Assembly: GCA_937124585.1 (NCBI GenBank)
Contig: CAKZKT010000044.1
Coordinates: 1 to 40,594 of the forward strand
Length of the DNA: 40,594 bases
Direction: 5' to 3'
Origin: an uncultured Anaerolineae bacterium
GTDB lineage: Bacteria > Chloroflexota > Anaerolineae > CG2-30-64-16
A program made the translations under genes and the position numbers. The notes beneath the pieces were generated by a model, which was given only the letters and a program-made list of their open reading frames with translations, searched no databases and had not been told where the DNA came from. Below are positions 28,197-38,714 of the stretch, piece by piece; the stretch's first letter is position 1; every line of letters begins with the position of its first letter.

Positions 28197-29339
28197 TCAG
28201 GCTGTGACGCACTGCAACATGGCCACCAGCACACTCACCCCGCGGCGCCATTCTTCGATGAGGACATGCTCGTTGGGCGTGTGATCGAGGCTGCTGTCGC
28301 CGGGCCCATACGCGACGATGGGACAGCGCCAGATCGGCCCGACCACATTCATGTCGCTGGTGCCGGTCTTGACGACAAAGCCGGGTTCGCCGCCGTGGTC
28401 ACGGATGGCACTCAGGAAGGCGCGCACCAGCGGAGTGTTCTTCTCGGCCCGGAAGGCACGCTCCTCGCCGCTGAAGCGGAATGTCCCCTGGCCATCTACG
28501 CTGATGAGGAGGCTTTTGAGCGTCTCCGGCGCGATGTCCAGCGGCAGGCGAAAGCCCATGCGCAGGCTGGCCGTTTCCAGCAGGCCGTCGTCGCCTGAGG
28601 CGATGTGGCGGAGCGAAGCCTGCACCTGCTCCCAGGGCCGCTCGCGACCGGTGTTAAGCTCTTCCAGCAGCGCCTGCACGCGGCTCCAGTAGGCGAAGGC
28701 GGCCTCCGGCGCGCTGATGGCCGGTCCGGCGGTGTGCGACATCATGCGCTGAAACTCGATATCGGCCAGCAGGCGGCCTTTGTAGCCCAGGGCCACACGC
28801 TGCCAGCCCGTCGGCTCGCCGATGACGACCAGATCGGGCGTGCGTTGGCCGGCGATGTAGCGCGCGCCTTTGGACGAGGCGCTCTCCTCCTCGACCGCGC
28901 CGACGACGACGATGCGCCAGCCCGGTCGCCGGCCGACCGCCGCCGCTGCCGTCGCAAAAGCGGCCAGTGGGCCTTTGGCATCCACGGCCCCGCGGCCGTA
29001 CAGACGACCATTGCTCTCGCGCACGCGCGGAAAACCGCGCACGGTGTCAATGTGGCCGAGCAGCAGGATCTCGCGCAGAGGCTGGGAAGCGGGGGCTGGG
29101 GGCTCGGGGTTGGGGGCTGGCGCAGCGCCGTTCCCCGCATCCGGCAGCCGACCGCCGGCTTCCAGCACGCCGACCGCGTTGCCGGCCGCGTCGCGATAGG
29201 CGGTGAAACCGTGCCGCGAGAGCCAGCGCACCAGGTGGTTGACGGCCGGCATTTCCTCACCGGACGGCGAGCGGATCTCCAGCAGTTCGCGCAGCAGCTG
29301 CAAGCCGCTGCCTGTGATTTCTTCAATGGACGCTGTCAT
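28197..29339 (-). CDS. lysK: [LysW]-lysine hydrolase LysK (M20-type peptidase)
   Basis: Encodes 380 aa, last gene of the lysine operon. LysK releases lysine (or ornithine) from the C-terminal Glu of LysW. Metal-site blocks of the M20 family are present: 'LLLGHIDTV' (His, Asp), 'LYGRGAVDAKGPLAAF' (Asp), 'GAVEEESASSKG' (catalytic Glu pair), 'VVIGEPTG' (Glu) and 'DHTPNEHVLIEEW' (His). 'KTGTSDMNVVGP' is a LysK-typical block. The start at 29339 has GAGG seven bases upstream; the in-frame GTG at 29345 is too close. Residues near 70-88 are a Pro/Ala-rich insert encoded by a G-rich repeat between two core strands, not expected in the family. Confidence 0.92.
   Translation of the reverse strand: MTASIEEITGSGLQLLRELLEIRSPSGEEMPAVNHLVRWLSRHGFTAYRDAAGNAVGVLEAGGRLPDAGNGAAPAPNPEPPAPASQPLREILLLGHIDTVRGFPRVRESNGRLYGRGAVDAKGPLAAFATAAAAVGRRPGWRIVVVGAVEEESASSKGARYIAGQRTPDLVVIGEPTGWQRVALGYKGRLLADIEFQRMMSHTAGPAISAPEAAFAYWSRVQALLEELNTGRERPWEQVQASLRHIASGDDGLLETASLRMGFRLPLDIAPETLKSLLISVDGQGTFRFSGEERAFRAEKNTPLVRAFLSAIRDHGGEPGFVVKTGTSDMNVVGPIWRCPIVAYGPGDSSLDHTPNEHVLIEEWRRGVSVLVAMLQCVTA
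29091..29120. repeat. G-rich degenerate heptamer repeat inside lysK
   Basis: Three GGGGGCT-type units with variants, in frame, encoding a Pro/Ala-rich loop in LysK. The same unit occurs inside lysTU at 31006-31057. Four G-runs make a G-quadruplex possible on the + strand. Confidence 0.7.
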
Positions 29340-29388
29340 GAGCACACCTCACTTGTTTACAAAAAAGCATTCGGGGGTTGGCACATGA

Positions 29389-30471
29389 TCAACGGTGATC
29401 GGCATCGGCGATGATGCACCGGCAGATCTCGGCGGTCACTTCCGCGGTGGAAGCAACGCCGCCCAGGTCGGGCGTCGCGACGCCGGCAGCGATGGCGGTC
29501 GCCACCGCGCCGCGCACACGCTCGGCCGCCGCGGCCTGCCCGATGTGGTCGAGCAACATGGCCGCGCTGAGGATGGCACCGATGGGATTGGCGATCCCCT
29601 TCCCGGCGATGTCCGGCGCGCTGCCGTGCACCGGCTCGCACACGGCCACGCGACCGGCGCCTACATTGGCCGACGGCGCCACGCCCAGCCCGCCCACCAG
29701 GCCGGCCGCCTCATCGGAGAGGATATCGCCGAACATATTCGTGGTGACAATCACATCAAAACGGCCCGGATCGGTCACCAGCCACATCGCCGCTGCGTCC
29801 ACCAGCATCTCCTGGACCCGCACATCCGGATACTCCCTGGCGACCGCCAGACACGCCTCTCGGAACAGCCCATCGGTCAGCTTGAGCACATTGGCCTTGT
29901 GAACGACGGTGACCGTCGGGGGCCGGGGGCCGGATTTGCCCATTTGCCCGTTCGCCCTTTTGCGCGCCTGCTCGAACGCCACGCGCGCAATGCGCTCGCT
30001 GGCCCGCCGCGTGATAACGCGATCGGCGACCGCGGTGTCGGCATCTTCCCAGCGCTCGCGGCCGGCGTACAGGTCTTCGGTGTTCTCCCGCACGATGAGC
30101 AGGTCAATCGGCCGGCCGGCCGGCAGCAGGTTGACGGTCGGCCGCAGGTTGGCATACAGATCGAAGCGACGGCGCAGCTCGAGGATGGGGCTGCGGTAAA
30201 CGCCGCGCGCAGGCCCTGCGCTCCCCTGAGCCGGGATCGAGGCGGCACCGGTGATCGGCGACTGCGTGGCGCCGAAAAGCACACCGTCTGCACGGACCAC
30301 CGCCTCGACCGTCGCATCGGGCAATGCTGTGCCGGTGCGCAGGAAACAATCCCACCCGGCATCCGCCTCGACGAACTCGACATCCGGCAGCACGGTTGCC
30401 AGCACGGTTGCTGCAGCCGGAATCACCTCACGTCCCACCCCGTCGCCGGGGATCAGGCAAATGGTTGGCAT
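29389..30471 (-). CDS. hicdh: Homoisocitrate dehydrogenase (AAA lysine pathway)
   Basis: Encodes 360 aa of the isocitrate/isopropylmalate dehydrogenase family: '[13 protein letters not shown]' at the N-terminus, substrate Arg block '[18 protein letters not shown]', '[13 protein letters not shown]', catalytic Lys in 'VVHKANVLK', metal Asp residues in '[16 protein letters not shown]', and coenzyme loop '[18 protein letters not shown]'. It oxidatively decarboxylates homoisocitrate to 2-oxoadipate; the substrate call rests mainly on the flanking homoaconitase and LysK genes, since the family is hard to split by motif. The start at 30471 has AGGAG upstream and overlaps lysTU by 19 bp. A repeat-encoded insert ('[16 protein letters not shown]') precedes 'TVTVVHKAN'. 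Confidence 0.88.
29917..29962. repeat. Two simple repeats inside hicdh
   Basis: Two GGGGGCC units are followed by three to four degenerate 8-bp units of the type TTTGCCCA/TTTGCCCG. The block is in frame and encodes the extra loop of the dehydrogenase just before its catalytic-Lys strand. Confidence 0.65.
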
Positions 30472-32597
30472 AGTTCTCCTGGACAATTTTCGAAATCAGG
30501 GTTTGACGGTTCACGCCTCACGTCGCGCGCGCGCCGCAACATCTCCAGCAGCCCGCCTGCCTCGATGATCCGGCGGACAGAGGGCGAGAACGGCTGAAAC
30601 GAGAACTCGCCGGCCGCGCAGCGCACCGTACACCGATCCAGGTCAACCGAAATCATCTCGCCGGGCTGAATGGCGGCGACCGCCTCCGGGCAGACGATGG
30701 GCAGGACGCTGTTGTTGACCGCGTTGCGGAAAAAGATGCGGGCGAACGACGCGGCCACGATCACACGCACGCCTGCAGCCTTCAGGCACGTCACCGCCTG
30801 CTCGCGGCTCGACCCTGCGCCCCAGTTGCGGCCGCCGACAATGATGTCGCCGGGGCGCACGTTGGCCGCAAAGGTGGGATCGAGGTCCTCTAGCGCGTGC
30901 TTCGCCATCTCCGCCGCGTCCTTGATCGTGTAAGTGTATTTGCCCGGAAAGATCACATCGGTGTTCACGTCGTCGCCGTATTTCCAGACGCGTCCGGAAA
31001 AGGTAGGGGGTTGGGGGGTGGGGGCTGGGGGCTGGGGGCTGGGGGCTGGGGGTTGGGCGCGATGAGAGGAGGTTTCGGCTTCCGATCTCGGGCTGCTAAC
31101 CTCCGATCTCGAGCTGCTAACCTCCGATCTCGGGTTGGCAGCCTCCAGCCTCCGATGCCCCGCCTCAAACTGCGGAGTGCCACTGCGTGCAGCCCACTCC
31201 TCGGCCCCCGCTGTCACCTCGCGCGGGTCGGCGATCCGGCCCAGCACCGCGCTGGCCGCCACCACAGCCGGGCTGGCCAGGTAGACAGCCGCCTCGGGAT
31301 TGCCCATGCGACCGCGAAAATTGCGGTTGCCACTGCTGATCACCGTCTCGCCCGTGGCCGGCACGCCCAGATGATTGCCCATGCACGGCCCGCAGCCGGG
31401 CACGCCGATCATGGCGCCGGCCGCCACGAAGGTCTCGATGTAGCCCAGCTGAAGGGCCTGCGCCAGCACCTCGCTCGAAGCCGGGATCACGATGAGCCGC
31501 GTCCCGGCAGCGACACGGCGCACGCTCCCGTCCGGAGCGCGCAGGACGGCAGCCGCCGCGGCCAGATCCTCCAGCCGGCCGTTCGTGCAGGTGCCCAGAA
31601 ACGCCTGATCCACGTGCACGCCTGCCACCTGCGAAAGGGGCACGGCCTTCGCCGGGCTGTGGGGCACGGCCACCATCGGCTCCAGGGCGCTCAGGTTGAT
31701 GACGTGCCGCTCGAGGTAGCCGGCATCGGGATCGGGATAGAGCGCGCCGGCCGCCAGCCGCGCGGCCCAGGCCGCCGCGCGTCTCTCGCCCCGGTCCTCT
31801 TCCCCGTGGGGCGAGGGCGCGGCCGATGCCCCCTCCCGGCCGGGGAAAGGATCAGGGTGAGGGCCGGATCGGCCAGCCAGCCGCTCGGCCAGCCAGGCGA
31901 ACACTGCGTCGTCCGGCTCCAGATAGGCGCTCTTGACGCCCGACTCGGCCATCAGGTTCGGCAGCACCATGCGGCTCTCGATGCTCAACGTGCGCAGGCC
32001 CGGCCCACCGAACTCCAGCGCCCGGTAGATGCCCGCCTCTGGCCCCAATAACTTCAGCACCCACAGCCCCAGATCCTTCGCCGTAACGCCGTGCGGCAGC
32101 ACGCCGATCAGCTCGATGCGGATCGTCTCGGGCACGCGCAGCCATAGCTCGCCCGTGGCCCAGACGGCTGCCATCTCGCTGCGGCCGATGCCGGCGCCGA
32201 ATGCGCCCAGCCAGCCGGCATGCGTCGTGTGGCTGTCTGCGCCCAGGATGAGCTGTCCCGGCCAGATCAGCGCCTCCTCGCTGGCGACCTGATGACAGAT
32301 GCCGCGGCCCGCCTCGTAAAAATGCGTGATCCCCTGCTCGGCCACGAACTGCCGCACCTCGCGATGGTTCAAGGCGTGCTCTGCGCTCGGCGCGGGCACC
32401 GCGTGATCGAGAAAAATCGCCAGCCGTTCGGGATGGCGCACCCGTGTATAGCCCAGGCTGCGAAACAGCCGGGCGATGTCGGCCGTGTTATCGTGGCTCA
32501 GCACCACATCGGGCCGGGCATCCACGATCTGCCCGGCCGCTGCCCGCTCCAGCCCTGCCGCGCGCGCCAGCGCCTTCTCTGCAAACGTCAATCCCAT
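30453..32597 (-). CDS. lysTU: Fused homoaconitase, LysT-LysU (large and small subunits in one chain)
   Basis: Encodes 714 aa. The large-subunit part (about 1-475) has '[10 protein letters not shown]', '[11 protein letters not shown]', '[18 protein letters not shown]' and the three [4Fe-4S] cysteines, one in '[11 protein letters not shown]' (~335) and two in '[12 protein letters not shown]' (~398, 401). The small-subunit part (from about 530) has '[17 protein letters not shown]', '[17 protein letters not shown]' and '[12 protein letters not shown]'. It converts homocitrate to homoisocitrate; these subunits are normally separate proteins in bacterial AAA and leucine pathways. The ~55-residue linker is made of repeat-encoded sequence, and another repeat-derived insert lies at about 244-278. 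The start at 32597 has AAGGAG upstream. The 3' end overlaps hicdh by 19 bp. Confidence 0.92.
31006..31057. repeat. GGGGGCT heptamer array in the lysTU linker
   Basis: Four near-perfect GGGGGCT units flanked by GGGGGTT/GGGGGG variants. Read on the minus strand in frame it gives '[17 protein letters not shown]', the flexible linker between the LysT and LysU halves. Confidence 0.85.
31081..31143. repeat. 21-bp tandem repeat, three copies, in the lysTU linker
   Basis: Units at 31081-31101, 31102-31122 and 31123-31143. The first two differ at one base and the third diverges at its end. Each encodes a heptad like 'RSEVSSS', so copy changes would keep the frame. Confidence 0.85.
31783..31866. repeat. 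Palindromic GC-rich insert inside the LysT half
   Basis: Arms CTCTCGCCCC (31783-31792) and GGGGCGAGGG (31808-31817) pair at 9 of 10 positions and are followed by a CCCTCACCCTGATCC-like tail on the minus strand. The block encodes '[11 protein letters not shown]...[12 protein letters not shown]', a loop foreign to aconitases and reminiscent of dispersed palindromes in other bacteria. Confidence 0.6.
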
Positions 32598-32618
32598 CCT
32601 CTCGTCTCCTTAACCCTG

Positions 32619-33797
32619 TCACCCCACCCCCGCCGGCAGCGGCGACTCCATCATTTCATGGCCGTTGGCCCAGTTGCGCAGCAACAAGTCCACATCGTCC
32701 AGCGTCAACGCTCGCTCGTCGGCCAACGCCTTGATGTGCTGGGTCAACGCCTTCACCTGTGCGTCCGAGAGATTCAGGTTCAGCTGCTCGGCGCGCGCCT
32801 TGACGGCATTCCAACCGGTCAGCCGATGGGCGATAGAGATGTAGCGGGTCAGGCCGAAATCGTGCGGATCGAGCGCCTCGTAGGTCTCGGGCGCGTTCAG
32901 GATCGCTTTGGCGTGGATGCCGGCCTTGTGCGTGAACGCGCTGAAGCCGGTGACGTAATTGTTGAAGGGGATATCCACACCGACCATCTCCGCGACCATC
33001 AACTCCAGCGCGCGCAGCCGGGACAGGCGATATTTCGTTCGCGTCGCCGCGCGGTCGTAGGTATACATGCGCGCGATCAGGCCGCCCAGCGCGGTGATGC
33101 CGTTGCGCTCGCCGATGCCGAGCACGGTGGTGTCAATGTGCGTGGCGCCCGCCTCGAGCGCGGCGAACGCATTGGCGATCGCGCAGCCGGAATCGTTGTG
33201 GCCGTGAAACTCGATGTCACACCTGGTTAGCCGGCGCAGCGTGCCCACCAGCCGGCTCACCTGTGTCGGCGTGGCGATGCCCACCGTGTCGGCCGTTCCC
33301 AGCCGGTTGACGACCCCCAGCCTGTCCACCGCCAGATAGACGCGCAGCAATTCGGCCTCTTCGCTGCGGAAAGAGTCCTCGGTGCTGAAACGCAGCTCGA
33401 TGTCCGGCGCCTGCGCCCGGATCCAGGTCAGCACCTCGGCGGCCAGATCAATGATCTCGTCAATGCTCTTGCCGTGGCTGAACTGCCGCAGCTTCGACGA
33501 CGTGCCGATCACCACATCCACGCCGTGCACGCCGGTGTCGAGCGCCACCCGAGCGTCCTCTTTGTGGCAACGGATATGCGTCAGAATGCGGGCCTTCAGC
33601 CCCAACCGGGTGATGGCCTTGATGTCTTCCAGGCTGCGAGGCGAGGCCATCGGTGAAGTCAGCTCCAGGTACTCGACCCCGAACTCATCCAATGCCTCGG
33701 CGACACGGATCTTCTGCGCCGTGCTGAACTGCGCGTTGACAAACTGTTCGCCCTCGCGCAACGTGGAGTCTATGATGTAGTAGTGTTCCAGTGACAT
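32619..33797 (-). CDS. hcs: Homocitrate synthase
   Basis: Encodes 392 aa of the DRE-TIM acyltransferase family. '[12 protein letters not shown]' carries the family D-x-T-L-R-E-G motif, and metal His residues are in '[12 protein letters not shown]'. '[13 protein letters not shown]', '[14 protein letters not shown]', '[12 protein letters not shown]' and '[19 protein letters not shown]' complete the barrel, and '[13 protein letters not shown]' is the homocitrate-synthase-type block. It condenses 2-oxoglutarate with acetyl-CoA as the first step of the AAA route and is typically inhibited by lysine. The C-terminus is shorter than a full LeuA regulatory domain, as in Thermus-type enzymes. The start at 33797 has GGGAGGG upstream. 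Confidence 0.92.
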
Positions 33798-33820
33798 ATC
33801 GCTTCCCTCCCTGGCGAGAT

Positions 33821-33882
33821 GGTGACAAGGTGACAAAATGGAAAAAATGATGTGCGGCAGATCCTCGTGTCACCCCGTCACC
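33821..33882. repeat. Inverted pair of GGTGACNN repeats between lysJ and hcs
   Basis: GGTGACAAGGTGACA (33821-33835) and TGTCACCCCGTCACC (33868-33882) complement at 13 of 15 positions across a 32-nt loop. They could form a large hairpin in the lysine mRNA, with no T-tract after it. Each arm is two copies of an 8-bp unit. Confidence 0.6.
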
Positions 33883-33893
33883 CTGCAGCGGCC

Positions 33894-35144
33894 TCATCCC
33901 ACCGCGCGCGCAACCGCCTCCACCACCCGATCCAGATCGTCCGGCGCGATCACCAGCGGCGGCAGGAGGCGCAGGACGGTGGCGCCGGCCGGCAGTGCGA
34001 GCACCCCCATCTCCTGCAATTTCTGCAAGATCGGCGTGACCTTGACGCGCAGGTCTACGCCGACCATCAGGCCCAGACCGCGCACCTCGCGGATCAGCGG
34101 CGATTCGAGGCGACGCAGCCGCCCCAGCAGGTACTCGCCCAAACGAGCCGCGCGTTCGGGCAGGGTTTCGCCGGCCGCGCCGCGTTGCGTCATCAGATCC
34201 AGCGTCGCCAGGGCTGCCGCGCACGCCAGCGGATTGCCGCCGAAGGTACTGCCGTGCGTCAACGGCTTGATCCCCTGCACGGCCGGGCCGATCAGACACG
34301 CGCCCATCGGCAGGCCGCCGGCCATGGATTTGGCGATCGTCATCAAATCGGGCTGCAGTCCATAGTGCTGGCAGGCAAACAGCTTGCCCGTGCGGCCATA
34401 GCCGGTCTGCACCTCGTCGAGGATGAAGCACGCGCCCCGCGCGCGACAGAGCTCCTGCGTCCGGCCCAGGTATTCGACCGTGCCCGGATGCACGCCCCCC
34501 TCTCCCTGCACGACCTCCAGAATCACCGCGGCGGTGTCATCGCCGACGGCTGCTTCGAGCGCGGCGATGTCGTTGTAGGGCACGTGGCTGAAACCGGGCA
34601 CCAGCGGCTCGAACGGCTGGCGATATTCCTTGTTGCCGGTGGCCGAGAGCGCGCCGAAGGTACGCCCGTGAAAGCTGCGCACGGCCGCCACCACCCCTGG
34701 TCGGCCGGTGCTGAGGCGGGCGAACTTGAGCGCCGCCTCGTTCGCCTCCGCGCCGGAATTGCACAGGAAAACGCGCGTCTCCTGCGGGCCGGTCGGCGCG
34801 ACGGCAGCCAGCCGGCCGAGGAGTTGCGCCCGCTGATCGTTGTAGAAGATCTCCGGACAGGAGATCAACGTAGCGGCCTGCCGGCTGATCGCGGCGACGA
34901 TGGCCGGATGTGCATGGCCCAGATTGGCCGCGCCCTGGCCAGCGACGCAATCAATGTACTCGCGACCCGTCGCGTCCCAGACGCGCGCGCCCTGGCCCCG
35001 CACGATGACCAGCGGCCGTTTGGGATAGACGCCGGACGTGTGCGCGGATTCGAGAGCGACGATGGCGGATTGGTCGCCCGGCAGATCGGCGGATTGGGCC
35101 ATCGAAAAAACAGGAGAATGAGAAAACAAGCGCGTATCAGCCAT
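33894..35144 (-). CDS. lysJ: [LysW]-aminoadipate semialdehyde transaminase LysJ
   Basis: Encodes 416 aa, class-III PLP aminotransferase (ArgD-like). Visible blocks: 'YIDCVAGQGAANLGHAHP', 'FLCNSGAEANEAALKFAR', 'SFHGRTFGALSATGN', 'VQGEGGVHPG', PLP Asp in 'FILDEVQTGYGRTG' (D243), Schiff-base K272 in 'TIAKSMAGGLPMGA', and 'GSTFGGNPLACAAAL'. It aminates LysW-bound aminoadipate semialdehyde using glutamate to give LysW-lysine, and may also serve ornithine synthesis. The start at 35144 has GGGAG nine bases upstream and overlaps lysZ by 8 bp. About 15 residues at the N-terminus precede the conserved region; the next Met has no SD. Confidence 0.93.
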   Translation of the reverse strand: MADTRLFSHSPVFSMAQSADLPGDQSAIVALESAHTSGVYPKRPLVIVRGQGARVWDATGREYIDCVAGQGAANLGHAHPAIVAAISRQAATLISCPEIFYNDQRAQLLGRLAAVAPTGPQETRVFLCNSGAEANEAALKFARLSTGRPGVVAAVRSFHGRTFGALSATGNKEYRQPFEPLVPGFSHVPYNDIAALEAAVGDDTAAVILEVVQGEGGVHPGTVEYLGRTQELCRARGACFILDEVQTGYGRTGKLFACQHYGLQPDLMTIAKSMAGGLPMGACLIGPAVQGIKPLTHGSTFGGNPLACAAALATLDLMTQRGAAGETLPERAARLGEYLLGRLRRLESPLIREVRGLGLMVGVDLRVKVTPILQKLQEMGVLALPAGATVLRLLPPLVIAPDDLDRVVEAVARAVG

Positions 35145-36045
35145 GGGCGCCGTCTCCCGATGTGCTGCCGGCCAGGCCGTGATCCCGCCATGGGCCGGTT
35201 CCCGGCATGACGCGTTCCGCCCTGCCGTCGCCGATCACCGTCCCTTCGCCCGCCAGCGCCGCGCGAATCGGATCGGCGCGCCGCGAATCGGCGATGATGA
35301 CCGCGGAGACGCCGCGGTCCAGCGCCTCGCGCGCGGCCAGGATCTTCTTCTTCATCCGACCCTGTGCCATCTCCTCGGCCCGGCCGAGCTGCGCCGGCGA
35401 CAGGCGACGGACGAGGCTGCTCTCGTCCGGGAAGTTCGCCAGCAGCCCAGGCACATTGCTGAGCAGCACCAGCGCCTCCGCGACGAGCGCGGCCGCGATG
35501 AGCGCGGCGGCCCGGTCGCCGTCCACGTTCAGCCGCTCGCCCGCATGGCCCAACGCCAGCGGCGCGATGACCGGGGTGTAGCCGGCTGCCAGCAACAGGC
35601 GGAGCAGGCCGGCGTTCGCCGATTCGAGCTGGCCGGTGTAATCATCACGGATGATGCGCTGCCGGCCGTTCTCGACCGCGCGCACGGCGTCTTTGCGCCG
35701 CGCCAGCAGCAGCCGGCCGTCCACGCCCGACAGGCCCACCGCATTGCAGCCGAGCCGCTGCAGTCCGGCCACGAGGGCTTTGTTGACCTGGCCGGCTGCA
35801 GCAGCCACGTACAGCTCCAGCATCTCGGGGTCGGTGTAGCGGCTGACATGGCCCGACGGCGATGTGATGTGGCGCACGGGCACGCCCGCGCGCGCGGCCA
35901 GCGCATCGGCCGCGGCCGACGTGCCGTGCACCAGCACGACCGGCCGCCCCTCGGCCGCCAGGGCCGCCACATCTGCCAGCACAGCCGACGCGTCCACTCC
36001 CGCCGCGCCGCCGAGTTTGATCACGATGGATTGGTGAATGGTCAT
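35137..36045 (-). CDS. lysZ: [LysW]-aminoadipate kinase LysZ
   Basis: Encodes 302 aa of the amino-acid kinase (ArgB-like) family. 'IVIKLGGAAG' carries K10 at the phosphate site, 'VVLVHGTSAAADAL' and 'HVSRYTDPEMLELYVAAAAGQVNK' are substrate-side blocks typical of LysZ, and 'RLNVDGDRAAALIAAAL' and 'MKKKILAAREALDRGVSAVII' form the ATP side. It phosphorylates the side-chain carboxyl of LysW-aminoadipate. The start at 36045 has AAGGA upstream. The family is normally ~265 aa; the additional ~30 residues lie at the C-terminus ('GTGPWRDHGLAGSTSGDGAHG'). Confidence 0.92.
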   Translation of the reverse strand: MTIHQSIVIKLGGAAGVDASAVLADVAALAAEGRPVVLVHGTSAAADALAARAGVPVRHITSPSGHVSRYTDPEMLELYVAAAAGQVNKALVAGLQRLGCNAVGLSGVDGRLLLARRKDAVRAVENGRQRIIRDDYTGQLESANAGLLRLLLAAGYTPVIAPLALGHAGERLNVDGDRAAALIAAALVAEALVLLSNVPGLLANFPDESSLVRRLSPAQLGRAEEMAQGRMKKKILAAREALDRGVSAVIIADSRRADPIRAALAGEGTVIGDGRAERVMPGTGPWRDHGLAGSTSGDGAHG

Positions 36046-36094
36046 AGTGTGTTCCTTGTGGTTGGATGACGCTTGGCGTTTCACGCTTCACGCT

Positions 36095-37162
36095 TCACAC
36101 CGGATGCAATCCCATGAATTCCAGGCCCATCGTCTCATCCCAGCCGAGCATCAGGTTCATGCACTGGACCGCGGAGCCGGCGGCGCCTTTGCCCAGGTTG
36201 TCAATGGCAGCCAGTGCGACCAGCCGGCCGGTCTGCGGATCGAGCTCCCAGCCGACGTCGGCCAGGTTGGTGCCGGCGAGCAGCTTCGGCTCGGGATGGC
36301 GGTAGATGCCGCCTCGCTCGTGGACGATGCGCACGAACGGCTCCTGGCCGTAGGCGGCCCGATAGGCGCGCCAGAGGTCCTTGTCGGTCGTGCCGGGTGC
36401 TACCCAGGCGTGCGCGGTCGCCAGCACCCCGCGCACCAGCTCGACCGAGGTGACCGAGAGGAAGACGTCGTCGCGACCCAGCGCCTGGATCACCTCGGCC
36501 TGATGGCGGTGGCCGACCGGCGCAAACGAGCGCACCGCGTCGCGGCGCTCCGGATGGTGCGAGGCCGCGCTGGCGGTAGCCCCGCCCTCCGACGACCCGG
36601 CCTTCACGTCTACGACGATCCGCTGGCCGGGCAGCAGCAGGCCCGCGCGCGCGGCCGGCCACAGCGCCAGGATCGCGGCAGTGGCGTTGCAGCCGACGCC
36701 GGAGACGTATTTCGAGTTGCGGATGGCCTGGCGGTTGATTTCGGGCAGGCCGTAGACGAAGCGTTCGACCCAGCCGGCCGCCGCGTGCGGCTCGGCGTAG
36801 TAGCGCTGATACAGGGCGAGATCGCGCACGCGGAAATCGGCCGAGAGGTCCACGATGCGCCCGGCCAGGCCGGCCAGGCGCTCGATGCGACGCTGCGCCT
36901 CGCCGTGCGGCAACGCCACGAAGAGCACATCGCAAGGCTGCAGCTCGCCGATGGCGGTGAAACGGATCGGTTGAAAACCAGAAGAAAGACGTTTGCCGGT
37001 AGGACGGAGATTGGGATGAAGGCTGTGGACGAATTCGCCGGTGTGGCTTTCCGAGGTGACCTGGGCGATCTCGACCTGAGAATGGCCGAGCAGGAGGCGA
37101 AGGAGCTCGCCGCCGCCGTAGCCGGAACCGCCCACAATGGAGACACGCACGCGTTCGCTCAT
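36095..37162 (-). CDS. lysY: [LysW]-aminoadipyl phosphate reductase LysY
   Basis: Encodes 355 aa, ArgC-like. The NADP loop is '[17 protein letters not shown]' (8-24). The catalytic Cys is C158 in '[14 protein letters not shown]'. Also present are '[10 protein letters not shown]', '[11 protein letters not shown]', '[12 protein letters not shown]' and '[12 protein letters not shown]' with the probable base His. It reduces the acyl phosphate made by LysZ to the semialdehyde while the substrate stays on LysW. The ATG at 37162 overlaps the lysX stop by 4 bp and has AGGAG upstream. Confidence 0.94.
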
Positions 37163-38082
37163 CGGGAGGCTCCTGGAGTGCTGCTACGGTGGACCACACC
37201 GGCCGGATACTCGGCATCGCCGCCGCTGCGGCCGACTTCCAGGACATACGCCACCACGCGGCCGGGGATGTCCACGCCGGTCGTGTGGATGCTGTTGCGG
37301 AATTCCATGGTGTGATTGACCTCGTTGACCAAAAAGCCGTGCTGGGGGTCCTCGAGCACGTCAATCGCCAGCACTCCGCCGCCAACGGCGCGCGCCGTCC
37401 GCCGGCACAGGTCGTTGAGCACCGGCGTCACCGGGCAGTTGCTGGCCTGACCGCCCCGGGCGGTGTTGGTGATCCAATGTTCGGACGTGCGGTAGATGGC
37501 ACAGATCGTCTCATCGCCGACCACGAAGGCCCGGATGTCGCGTCCGGGTTTGGTGATGTACTCCTGGATGTAATAAATGCTGTGCTGATAGGAGCCCAGG
37601 ACGTCCTTGTGCTCCAACACCGCCTCGGCTGCATCGCGGTCGTTGATCTTCGACAGCAGCCGGCCCCAGGAGCCGACGACCGGCTTCAGCACCACCGGGT
37701 AGCCCAGCTCCTCGATGGCGCGCAGCGCCGACTCCGGCGTGAAGGCCACGCGGACGCGCGGCTGGGGGATGCCGGCCTCGGCCAGCGCGGCCGTGGTCAG
37801 CAATTTGTCCCAGCAGGTGGCCGACGTGGCGTAGCGGTTCACCGTGCGATAGCCGTGCGCTTCGAGCACGCGCAGCGCGTAGATGCCGCGCGCTGCGCTC
37901 ACCGAGCGTTCCAGCACCACATCGGCCTCGAACGATGGCCGGCCGCCGTTGATCGGCAGCACCAGATCGTCGTCGTTGATCACCTGCACTGCGGCGCCGC
38001 CGGCCTCCAGGGCCGTGAGCAGCAGCTTTTCTTCCACGCGGATGCGGGAGACGAGCACAGCAACGCGCACAGGAGCGCTCAT
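37159..38082 (-). CDS. lysX: [LysW]-aminoadipate ligase LysX
   Basis: Encodes 307 aa of the RimK/ATP-grasp family. It attaches the amino group of 2-aminoadipate to the C-terminal Glu of LysW, with ATP hydrolysis. Blocks: '[16 protein letters not shown]', '[25 protein letters not shown]', '[19 protein letters not shown]' (ATP-grasp Lys and loop), '[20 protein letters not shown]', '[16 protein letters not shown]' and '[15 protein letters not shown]' (Mg ligands). The start at 38082 overlaps lysW by ATGA and has AGGAGGA upstream. Some homologues also accept glutamate for arginine synthesis; the surrounding homocitrate genes point to lysine. Confidence 0.94.
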
Positions 38083-38249
38083 TCGCCCCAATCCTCCTCT
38101 TCTTCGGGCGCCAGCTCCAGGCGCAACGGATCGAGCGAGCGCACTTCCAGGTCGGCGCCGCACGCGGCGCACGGGACGATTTCGCCCTGCATCGGGTTCT
38201 GCAACACGATCGGGCCTTCGCATTCGGGACAAACGGTTTCGTACGACAT
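38079..38249 (-). CDS. lysW: Amino-group carrier protein LysW
   Basis: Encodes only 56 aa. A zinc-ribbon is formed by 'CPEC' (7-10) and 'CAAC' (27-30), and a strongly acidic tail ends 'EEEEDWGE', the LysW hallmark in which the terminal Glu carries aminoadipate through the later steps of lysine synthesis. AAAGGAG lies nine bases upstream of ATG 38249. The stop overlaps the lysX start (ATGA). It is the first structural gene after a long leader containing two terminators, so expression of the whole operon appears to be set here. Confidence 0.95.
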
Positions 38250-38298: not shown

Positions 38299-38333
38299 AA
38301 AAAAACCCCTTCCGCCAGACTGGGCGGAAGGGG
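38299..38333 (-). terminator. Intrinsic terminator T2 (attenuator 2) before lysW
   Basis: A perfect 11-bp stem, CCCCTTCCGCC with GGCGGAAGGGG (38323-38333 and 38306-38316), a 6-nt loop and a run of seven T on the minus strand. It stops 49 nt short of the lysW start, inside the leader, so it should control read-through into the operon. Confidence 0.9.
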
Positions 38334-38367
38334 CTGCGCTGCCTGTCTCATCGTGCGCGCCAGCGAC

Positions 38368-38439
38368 CTATCCAGACCTCCAGTCTGGCCGGTTGCCGAA
38401 CTGCTTCTTGGCGCGCTTGATGATGGGCAGAAGATACAT
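38368..38439 (-). CDS. Candidate lysine leader peptide 2 (23 aa)
   Basis: ATG at 38439 with GAGGA five bases upstream, stop TAG at 38368-38370. The peptide starts MYLLPIIKRAKKQFG and ends with a Trp/Arg-containing stretch. Three AAG Lys codons at positions 8, 11 and 12 and three Arg codons stand out. The segment able to pair with terminator T2 starts about 15 nt after the last Lys codon, at the edge of a stalled-ribosome footprint. It resembles leader peptide 1 in 'LP-[VI]-[IL]-K'. Likely translated for regulation only; no cellular function expected. Confidence 0.6.
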   Translation of the reverse strand: MYLLPIIKRAKKQFGNRPDWRSG

Positions 38440-38501
38440 CGTGTCCTCGTTCTATGCTGTGTGCTGTGTAGGCCGCTCTCCGATCGGTGCGCTCATCGGG
38501 C

Positions 38502-38547
38502 AAACAAAAAGCCCTGCCCGGCTCATCTCTGGCCTGGCAGGGCTTTT
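38502..38547 (-). terminator. Intrinsic terminator T1 (attenuator 1)
   Basis: Twelve-bp stem AAAAGCCCTGCC with GGCAGGGCTTTT (38536-38547 and 38507-38518), 17-nt loop, then TTTTTGTTT on the minus strand. It lies 140 nt downstream of the lysine promoter and so cannot serve the upstream gene alone. Confidence 0.85.
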
Positions 38548-38573
38548 GCGCTGATCTCGGTCTGCTGACGTCG

Positions 38574-38657
38574 CTATCCCAAGCACGCATTGCCGTCCCT
38601 GCAGGCCAGGGAAGGCTTCTTCGACTTGGAGGACTTCAAGACGGGCAGATGGTTCAC
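38574..38657 (-). CDS. Candidate lysine leader peptide 1 (27 aa)
   Basis: GTG start at 38657, stop TAG at 38574-38576, beginning about 23 nt after the predicted transcription start. The peptide starts MNHLPVLKSSKSKKPS; four Lys codons (AAG at positions 8, 11, 13 and 14) precede a 6-bp hairpin and terminator T1. The SD is poor (only GAAG), so initiation efficiency is the weak point. The pattern 'LPVLK..K.KK' parallels 'LPIIK..KK' of leader peptide 2, which suggests a duplicated module. Confidence 0.5.
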   Translation of the reverse strand: MNHLPVLKSSKSKKPSLACRDGNACLG

Positions 38658-38686
38658 CGGATCTTCACTCGTACAAGGATGGCATT

Positions 38687-38714
38687 ATTATAACCGGTTT
38701 CGGCGAGATGTCAA
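38687..38714 (-). promoter_or_regulatory. Near-consensus promoter of the lysine operon
   Basis: Exact TTGACA (38709-38714), 16-bp spacer, exact TATAAT (38687-38692) on the minus strand, 38 bp after the stop of the STAND/TPR gene. Predicted start of transcription near 38680. The best promoter match in the window, as expected where output is limited downstream by attenuation. Confidence 0.85.

Follow-up and report, generated by a model that had tools for sequence, protein, structure and literature searches.

Ribosome-mediated attenuation is textbook knowledge, and a lysine leader peptide reportedly attenuates the lysine cluster of Thermus thermophilus. The preliminary description of the locus that we discuss here knew of no leader-peptide attenuation for the LysW pathway. 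That claim does not hold, given the Thermus report and given that Thermus contigs show a leader (MLARGKKLGRRGVG, then a stop codon) and a terminator ahead of homocitrate synthase. Leader-peptide attenuators can also occur in tandem: those of the mgtCBR operon of Salmonella respond to two different signals, ATP and proline, and were considered by their authors to be a singular example (PMC3641672). As for the range of such systems, a genome survey from 2010 stated that they were not known outside the Proteobacteria and Actinobacteria (PMC2965389).

The window (the whole stretch of 40,594 nt that was analyzed, from an uncultured member of the Anaerolineae) carries a lysine operon on its minus strand and, upstream of lysW, a leader whose parts run 5' to 3' on that strand in the order promoter, ORF1, T1, ORF2, T2, lysW Shine-Dalgarno sequence, and lysW start. 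We think it very likely that this leader consists of two complete transcription attenuators of the trp/his type, placed one behind the other on a single transcript ahead of the operon. The two successive modules of the preliminary description, each with a Lys-rich short ORF, a hairpin of 6 bp with a 5-nt loop, and an intrinsic terminator, are all present. The features are:

38687..38714, minus strand: promoter, TTGACA-16 bp-TATAAT (-35 TTGACA at 38714-38709, -10 TATAAT at 38692-38687), 12/12 consensus
38574..38657, minus strand: leader ORF1, 27 codons, GTG start, four Lys codons (AAG), MNHLPVLKSSKSKKPSLACRDGNACLG then stop; conserved in 13 leaders
38616..38636, minus strand: KSSKSKK, the Lys codon run within ORF1; kept in 13 leaders
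38576..38630, minus strand: module 1 outer helix P1, formed by UCCAAG (Lys codon) and CUUGGG (just 5' of the stop codon); 86% of cells paired, 13 sequences
38596..38612, minus strand: module 1 small hairpin P2, UCCCUG-GCCUG-CAGGGA, 6 bp, 5-nt loop; 90% of cells paired
38529..38609, minus strand: module 1 antiterminator, 38609-38597 (CUGGCCUGCAGGG) with 38542-38529 (CCCUGCCAGGCCAG); covariation, duplex z -3.3, MFE fold
38506..38545, minus strand: intrinsic terminator T1; 97% of helix cells paired, four pairs changed on both sides
38368..38439, minus strand: leader ORF2, 23 codons, ATG start, Shine-Dalgarno GAGG, three Lys codons, MYLLPIIKRAKKQFGNRPDWRSG then stop; conserved in relatives
38355..38416, minus strand: module 2 outer helix P1, GCGCGCCA (KRAK codons, 38416-38409) with UGGCGCGC (past the stop codon, 38362-38355); 81% of cells paired, CG/UA/UG changes among relatives
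38372..38388, minus strand: module 2 small hairpin P2, CCAGAC-UGGAG-GUCUGG, 6 bp, 5-nt loop; 82% of cells paired
38314..38389, minus strand: module 2 antiterminator, 38389-38380 with 38323-38314; 88% of cells paired, covariation
38299..38335, minus strand: intrinsic terminator T2; 77% of helix cells paired
38249-38079, minus strand: lysW
28197..38249, minus strand: lysine operon; NCBIfam matches, homocitrate synthase over the curated cut-off

The promoter had been called near-consensus; in fact there is one promoter and its match is perfect, while just 0.1 promoter-like sites would be expected by chance (from shuffles). The same promoter lies upstream in the 13 homologous leaders, with a 12/12 match in 11 of them, an 11/12 match in the other two, and a spacer of 16 bp in every case. 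Between T1 and ORF2, there is no promoter-like site in 12 of the 12 tandem leaders tested, and at locus L004 the module 1 segment ends 13 nt before the start of ORF2, which leaves no space for a promoter. The preliminary description had also considered a transcription start downstream of T2, and in the tandem leaders that we checked there is no promoter-like site there, except for one weak 9/12 site (L008). Because there is one upstream promoter and none between the modules, the two leader-peptide attenuators share one transcript, and polymerase has to traverse both terminators. Elsewhere, a 28-bp site (L002; G000:C31:35102-35129) is 93% identical to the -35 region; it has no adjoining leader, and we set it aside as an apparent coincidence of promoter elements.

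Each module also has an outer helix, absent from the preliminary description, that links the Lys codons to sequence lying at the stop codon or past it. ORF1 has a weak Shine-Dalgarno sequence ahead of its GTG start. The small hairpin was said to overlap the end of each ORF. This is correct for module 2, where P2 abuts the UAG stop codon of ORF2 (the same motif is found class-wide), but in module 1 the hairpin is inside ORF1 and ends 19 nt upstream of the stop codon. Similarly, the 5' side of each small hairpin was said to be complementary to its terminator. In module 2 there are indeed 10 perfect pairs, with an extension of GGAUAGG (38373-38367) pairing with CCUUCC (38331-38326), and the 5' arm, the loop, and the 3' flank of P2 all pair with T2. 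In module 1 the alternative pairing exists too, as a helix of 13/14 nt with one bulge, but it is mainly the loop and 3' arm of P2, not its 5' arm, that pair with the 5' arm of T1. In one relative (G006, locus L008), an inverted repeat of about 80 nt is inserted into ORF2; it keeps the frame open and splits the Lys run (IKRAKDREL...LSPKKQ).

In our set, the order to which the window belongs is represented by one family (f1) of ten genomes, nine of which have both modules. The two modules precede lysW in all eight of the f1 genomes that have lysW, and in G008 they lie at the end of a contig, where lysW would come next; lysW and the modules are all missing from the tenth genome, G005. A second family, f15, has the tandem too (G058, G109, G128, G163, G209, G219, and G249). 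In G023 the two modules are on two separate contig ends, and in G029 module 1 stands alone and is followed by a second terminator. When covariance models of module 2 (R1) and module 1 (R2) were searched over 199 relatives, there was one strong match per genome in 14 genomes for R1 (at least 79 bits) and in 15 genomes for R2 (at least 70 bits), with no second match of equal strength in those genomes. The strong matches that were read are located before lysW or at contig ends. Our tandem counts include strong R1 and R2 matches only, because unrelated terminators are among the matches that score less than about 40 bits. A weak match at L166 was rejected as a likely T-box before a synthetase. Public metagenome-assembled genomes have the same loci, for instance Anaerolineae bacterium CG2_30_64_16 and HGW-Chloroflexi-1.

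In 96 of 396 Anaerolineae genomes there are matches to R3, a model of the generalized module. Tandems, defined here as pairs of matches on the same strand that are spaced by a few tens to about 300 nt, occur in five further families: before homocitrate synthase in f24 (G066 and G093) and f3 (G011), before lysW in f16 (G179), and also in f54 (G389) and f47 (G121). Judging from these sequences, doubling of the module probably happened more than once. Also, R1 matches module 1 as well in G163 and G128, which is consistent with modules 1 and 2 being old duplicates. Upstream of lysW in another Anaerolineae MAG (L084) there is a second, unrelated-looking pair of Lys-rich ORFs with terminators, possibly an independent tandem. 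In Phycisphaerae (phylum Planctomycetota), we saw a single Lys-rich leader ORF and then a terminator before lysW at L068, L083, L089, L100, and L102.

The preliminary description allowed that relatives might conserve neither the short ORFs nor the pairing. This did not turn out to be so: both are kept in relatives, and all of the aligned leaders encode Lys in ORF1 and in ORF2. We scored covariation in alignments of 13 sequences, with 500 shuffles and with slid controls. For the module 1 antiterminator, 87% of cells are paired, and its covariation score was met in 0 of 500 shuffles; for the module 2 antiterminator, which has three pairs with double changes, it was met in 6 of 500. The slid controls scored far below both. 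Covariation, as proposed in the preliminary description, is thus found for both antiterminators and for P1, P2, and the terminator of module 1 (92% of cells paired; 0/500 shuffles), but for P1, P2, and the terminator of module 2 (80% of cells paired) it is not above shuffles (67/500). Against dinucleotide shuffles, the duplexes in the window have z = -3.3 (p = 0.004) for module 1 and z = -2.9 (p = 0.005) for module 2. With a strict footprint from the last Lys codon, the module 1 antiterminator is not significant in most species, while it is significant under a lenient footprint that gives the P2 region in full.

It might be that only one module senses lysine. In the other, the leader ORF would be decaying, and the terminator would be fixed or vestigial and would reduce basal expression. 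Most of the Anaerolineae that have the module have a single one, ORF1 is shortened by an early stop at L009, ORF2 has the in-frame insertion in G006, and L011 retains module 1 only, along with a second terminator that lacks a Lys ORF. On the other hand, the f1 and f15 leaders that were examined retain both ORFs, both Lys runs, and both antiterminators, and the covariation of the antiterminators in modules 1 and 2 argues for selection on both. We consider it unlikely that one of the modules is idle, and we continue with two modules that would both sense lysine.

In the mechanism that we propose, each module would be read by its own ribosome. The Lys codons lie within or beside P1, and P1 encloses P2. 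If Lys-tRNA is ample, then the ribosome would reach the stop codon and either cover P1 and P2 or free them to refold, and the terminator would form. If lysine is short, then the ribosome would stall on the AAG run and block P1; in module 1 it would block the 5' arm of P2 as well. With P1 blocked, the P2 region would pair with the growing terminator, and polymerase would continue. Because polymerase needs to pass both terminators, the amount of full-length transcript should be roughly the product of two read-through probabilities, which would give low leakage and a steeper response to one signal. The AND gate and sharpened response of the preliminary description are thus a reasonable prediction. 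We infer stalling of the ribosome, dependence on lysine, and multiplicative gating.

Folding models are consistent with this. We masked a ribosome with a Lys codon in its A site and folded the RNA before completion of the terminator. In 27 of the 27 modules examined, the P2 region formed 16-28 bp with the still incomplete terminator, versus 0-2 bp with the ribosome at the stop codon, where the terminator alone remains; this contrast is partly a product of the masking itself. In module 1, the antiterminator is the minimum free energy structure of the nascent RNA with the ribosome stalled on the Lys codons (masked fold). In folds that have no ribosome, most modules form P1/P2 and the terminator side by side. 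Once the transcript is complete, folds with a stalled ribosome often revert to the terminator, so antitermination would have to be kinetic. Given the wide set of single modules, RNAalifold recovered the P2 helix alone. In single modules outside of f1 and f15, the register of P1 shifts (GAGCAAGUC:GGCUUGCUC, GCGAAGCAAG:CUUGCUUUGC, and others), with the Lys codons remaining in P1 in the best cases, and the 3' arm of P2 pairs with the 5' side or the loop of the terminator, by up to 12 bp. So the topology of the antiterminator has moved, and the logic is unchanged.

The genes downstream had been taken for a LysW-type lysine operon, and the full set for that pathway is there: lysW, lysX, lysY/argC (an ArgC/LysY reductase), lysZ, lysJ, homocitrate synthase, a fused homoaconitase, a homoisocitrate dehydrogenase-like gene, and LysK, the [LysW]-lysine hydrolase. 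The genome contains no DapA above the family cut-off and has a separate ArgJ, so the operon would most simply be the cell's lysine pathway. The large and small subunits of homoaconitase are apparently fused into one protein of 714 amino acids (30453-32597, minus strand).

The module with its hairpin at the stop codon recurs across the Anaerolineae, and its leaders are rich in Lys where lysine genes follow and mostly rich in Arg where argC-argB or argG follow. We read 70 of the R3 matches (a few leaders were unreadable) and scored the 18 residues that precede the tail encoded by P2. Of the 38 leaders that stand before lysW, lysX, or homocitrate synthase, 31 have more Lys than Arg, versus 1 of the 9 before argC, argG, or carA (Fisher p = 1.5e-4, among related genomes; R3 was trained on 16 lysine-gene leaders and 2 arginine-gene leaders, and some leaders of the arginine pathway contain Lys as well). 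One genome (G234) has both types, with ...KQSKSKKPDLWSG before lysW and ...RRSLRAQPDHWSG before argC, each followed by a stop codon. Reading onward from the argC genes, the next gene is an acetylglutamate kinase of the ArgB kind, so the operons behind the argC leaders are arginine operons. This codon swap is the strongest evidence that the specificity of the leader would be set by decoding and not by a ligand-binding RNA.

A ligand-binding RNA (a lysine riboswitch or a T-box) or an RNA-binding protein might nevertheless control the terminators, in which case the short ORFs would be incidental. The RNA structure is strongly conserved, and a terminator with an alternative pairing is the anatomy of riboswitches too. 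But the Rfam scan of the leader found no lysine riboswitch, T-box, or other family (there were two chance-level matches at E<=1), the Lys codons show in-frame conservation, and only decoding gives a simple explanation for a residue that becomes Arg before arginine synthesis genes. We find such control very hard to credit. Conservation and covariation back the preliminary description's reading of two consecutive ribosome-mediated attenuators of a lysine operon, as do footprint folding and the Lys/Arg swap.

Modules of the same architecture lie before argC at L238, L239, L246, L248, L258, L260, L269, L272, L275, L157, and L158, before argG at L153 and L249, and before carA at L242. Most of the readable arginine-gene leaders are Arg-rich (for example RRSPRHTPDQWSG and RRSLRAQPDHWSG, both up to the stop codon). 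At L028 and L031, the lysW leaders abound in Arg and Ser instead of Lys (MTLSVIRNSRRARPKRS... and MTSFGKRSSRLIRSKRSR...), which suggests that arginine synthesis, or the sensing of arginine, may be a role of some LysW operons. Two module-like matches, L255 (G018) and L277 (G062), have proline-rich leaders (LPSPPEPEKPDRRSG and IPQPGPEPDLGSG, then stop) and precede a metallophosphoesterase-like gene.

Might module 2 sense arginine, or lysine and arginine together, and so link related pathways, while module 1 senses lysine? ORF2 has three Arg codons along with its three Lys codons, the identical architecture serves arginine genes in other places, and in T. thermophilus arginine affects the lysine genes through ArgR. 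However, two of the three Arg codons are at or inside the P2 hairpin and are dictated by structure, the KK pair is best positioned for stalling, and Lys dominates the module 2 homologues, both in f15 and in genomes with a single module. So we doubt that arginine is the signal, and we favor lysine as the signal for both modules.

As in the trp and his operons of E. coli, there is a leader ORF with regulatory codons, a protector helix, an antiterminator, and a terminator, and the position of the ribosome would decide between them. The leader ORFs contain codons for the product of the operon, the terminators are intrinsic, and the antiterminators are exclusive with them and show compensatory changes. 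Unlike in trp and his, which are single modules for other amino acids, the Lys codons are within the outer protector helix, and the antiterminator of module 2 uses the loop and the 3' side of its terminator. The locus shares with T. thermophilus the LysW/alpha-aminoadipate genes, a short Lys leader ORF, and an intrinsic terminator, and the Anaerolineae leaders likewise have adjacent Lys codons before genes of the alpha-aminoadipate pathway. But the Thermus leader before homocitrate synthase is a single module whose two Lys codons are adjacent, whereas lysW in this member of the Chloroflexota is preceded by two modules that differ from each other and have four and three Lys codons. Comparing MLARGKKLGRRGVG with the Anaerolineae leaders by eye alone, we saw no obvious similarity. 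In a literature search that covered subscription journals thinly, and so gives a weak negative, we found no serial leader-peptide attenuators for the same amino acid and no paper on LysW attenuation beyond the Thermus report.

Like mgtCBR, this operon has two tandem leader ORFs. The stem-loops of mgtCBR are unlike intrinsic terminators (PMC3641672), whereas each module here has an intrinsic terminator, and instead of different signals, both ORFs are Lys-rich and apparently respond to the same amino acid. The tandem riboswitches of Bacillus clausii metE also put two terminators in series with independent sensors, but these are ligand-binding RNAs for two metabolites and have no leader peptides. 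Given the statement of the 2010 survey (PMC2965389), a class-wide system in the Chloroflexota extends the known range of amino-acid leader-peptide attenuation. The leaders should also be useful: their Lys or Arg codons would predict whether ambiguous operons of the LysW/ArgC type make lysine or arginine, and the tandems are a natural test of how two serial attenuators for the same signal affect gain and leakage. On balance, we lean towards the view that the Anaerolineae have a class-wide, codon-swappable module that has been doubled several times independently, so as to give a multiplicative, low-leak, and steep response to a single amino acid, and that this design had not been described before. 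A single lysine switch is of a known type, while no description appears to exist of a same-signal double that is kept across a whole lineage; what remains new is the use of same-signal serial attenuators within a class-wide module of the Chloroflexota that can swap Lys for Arg.
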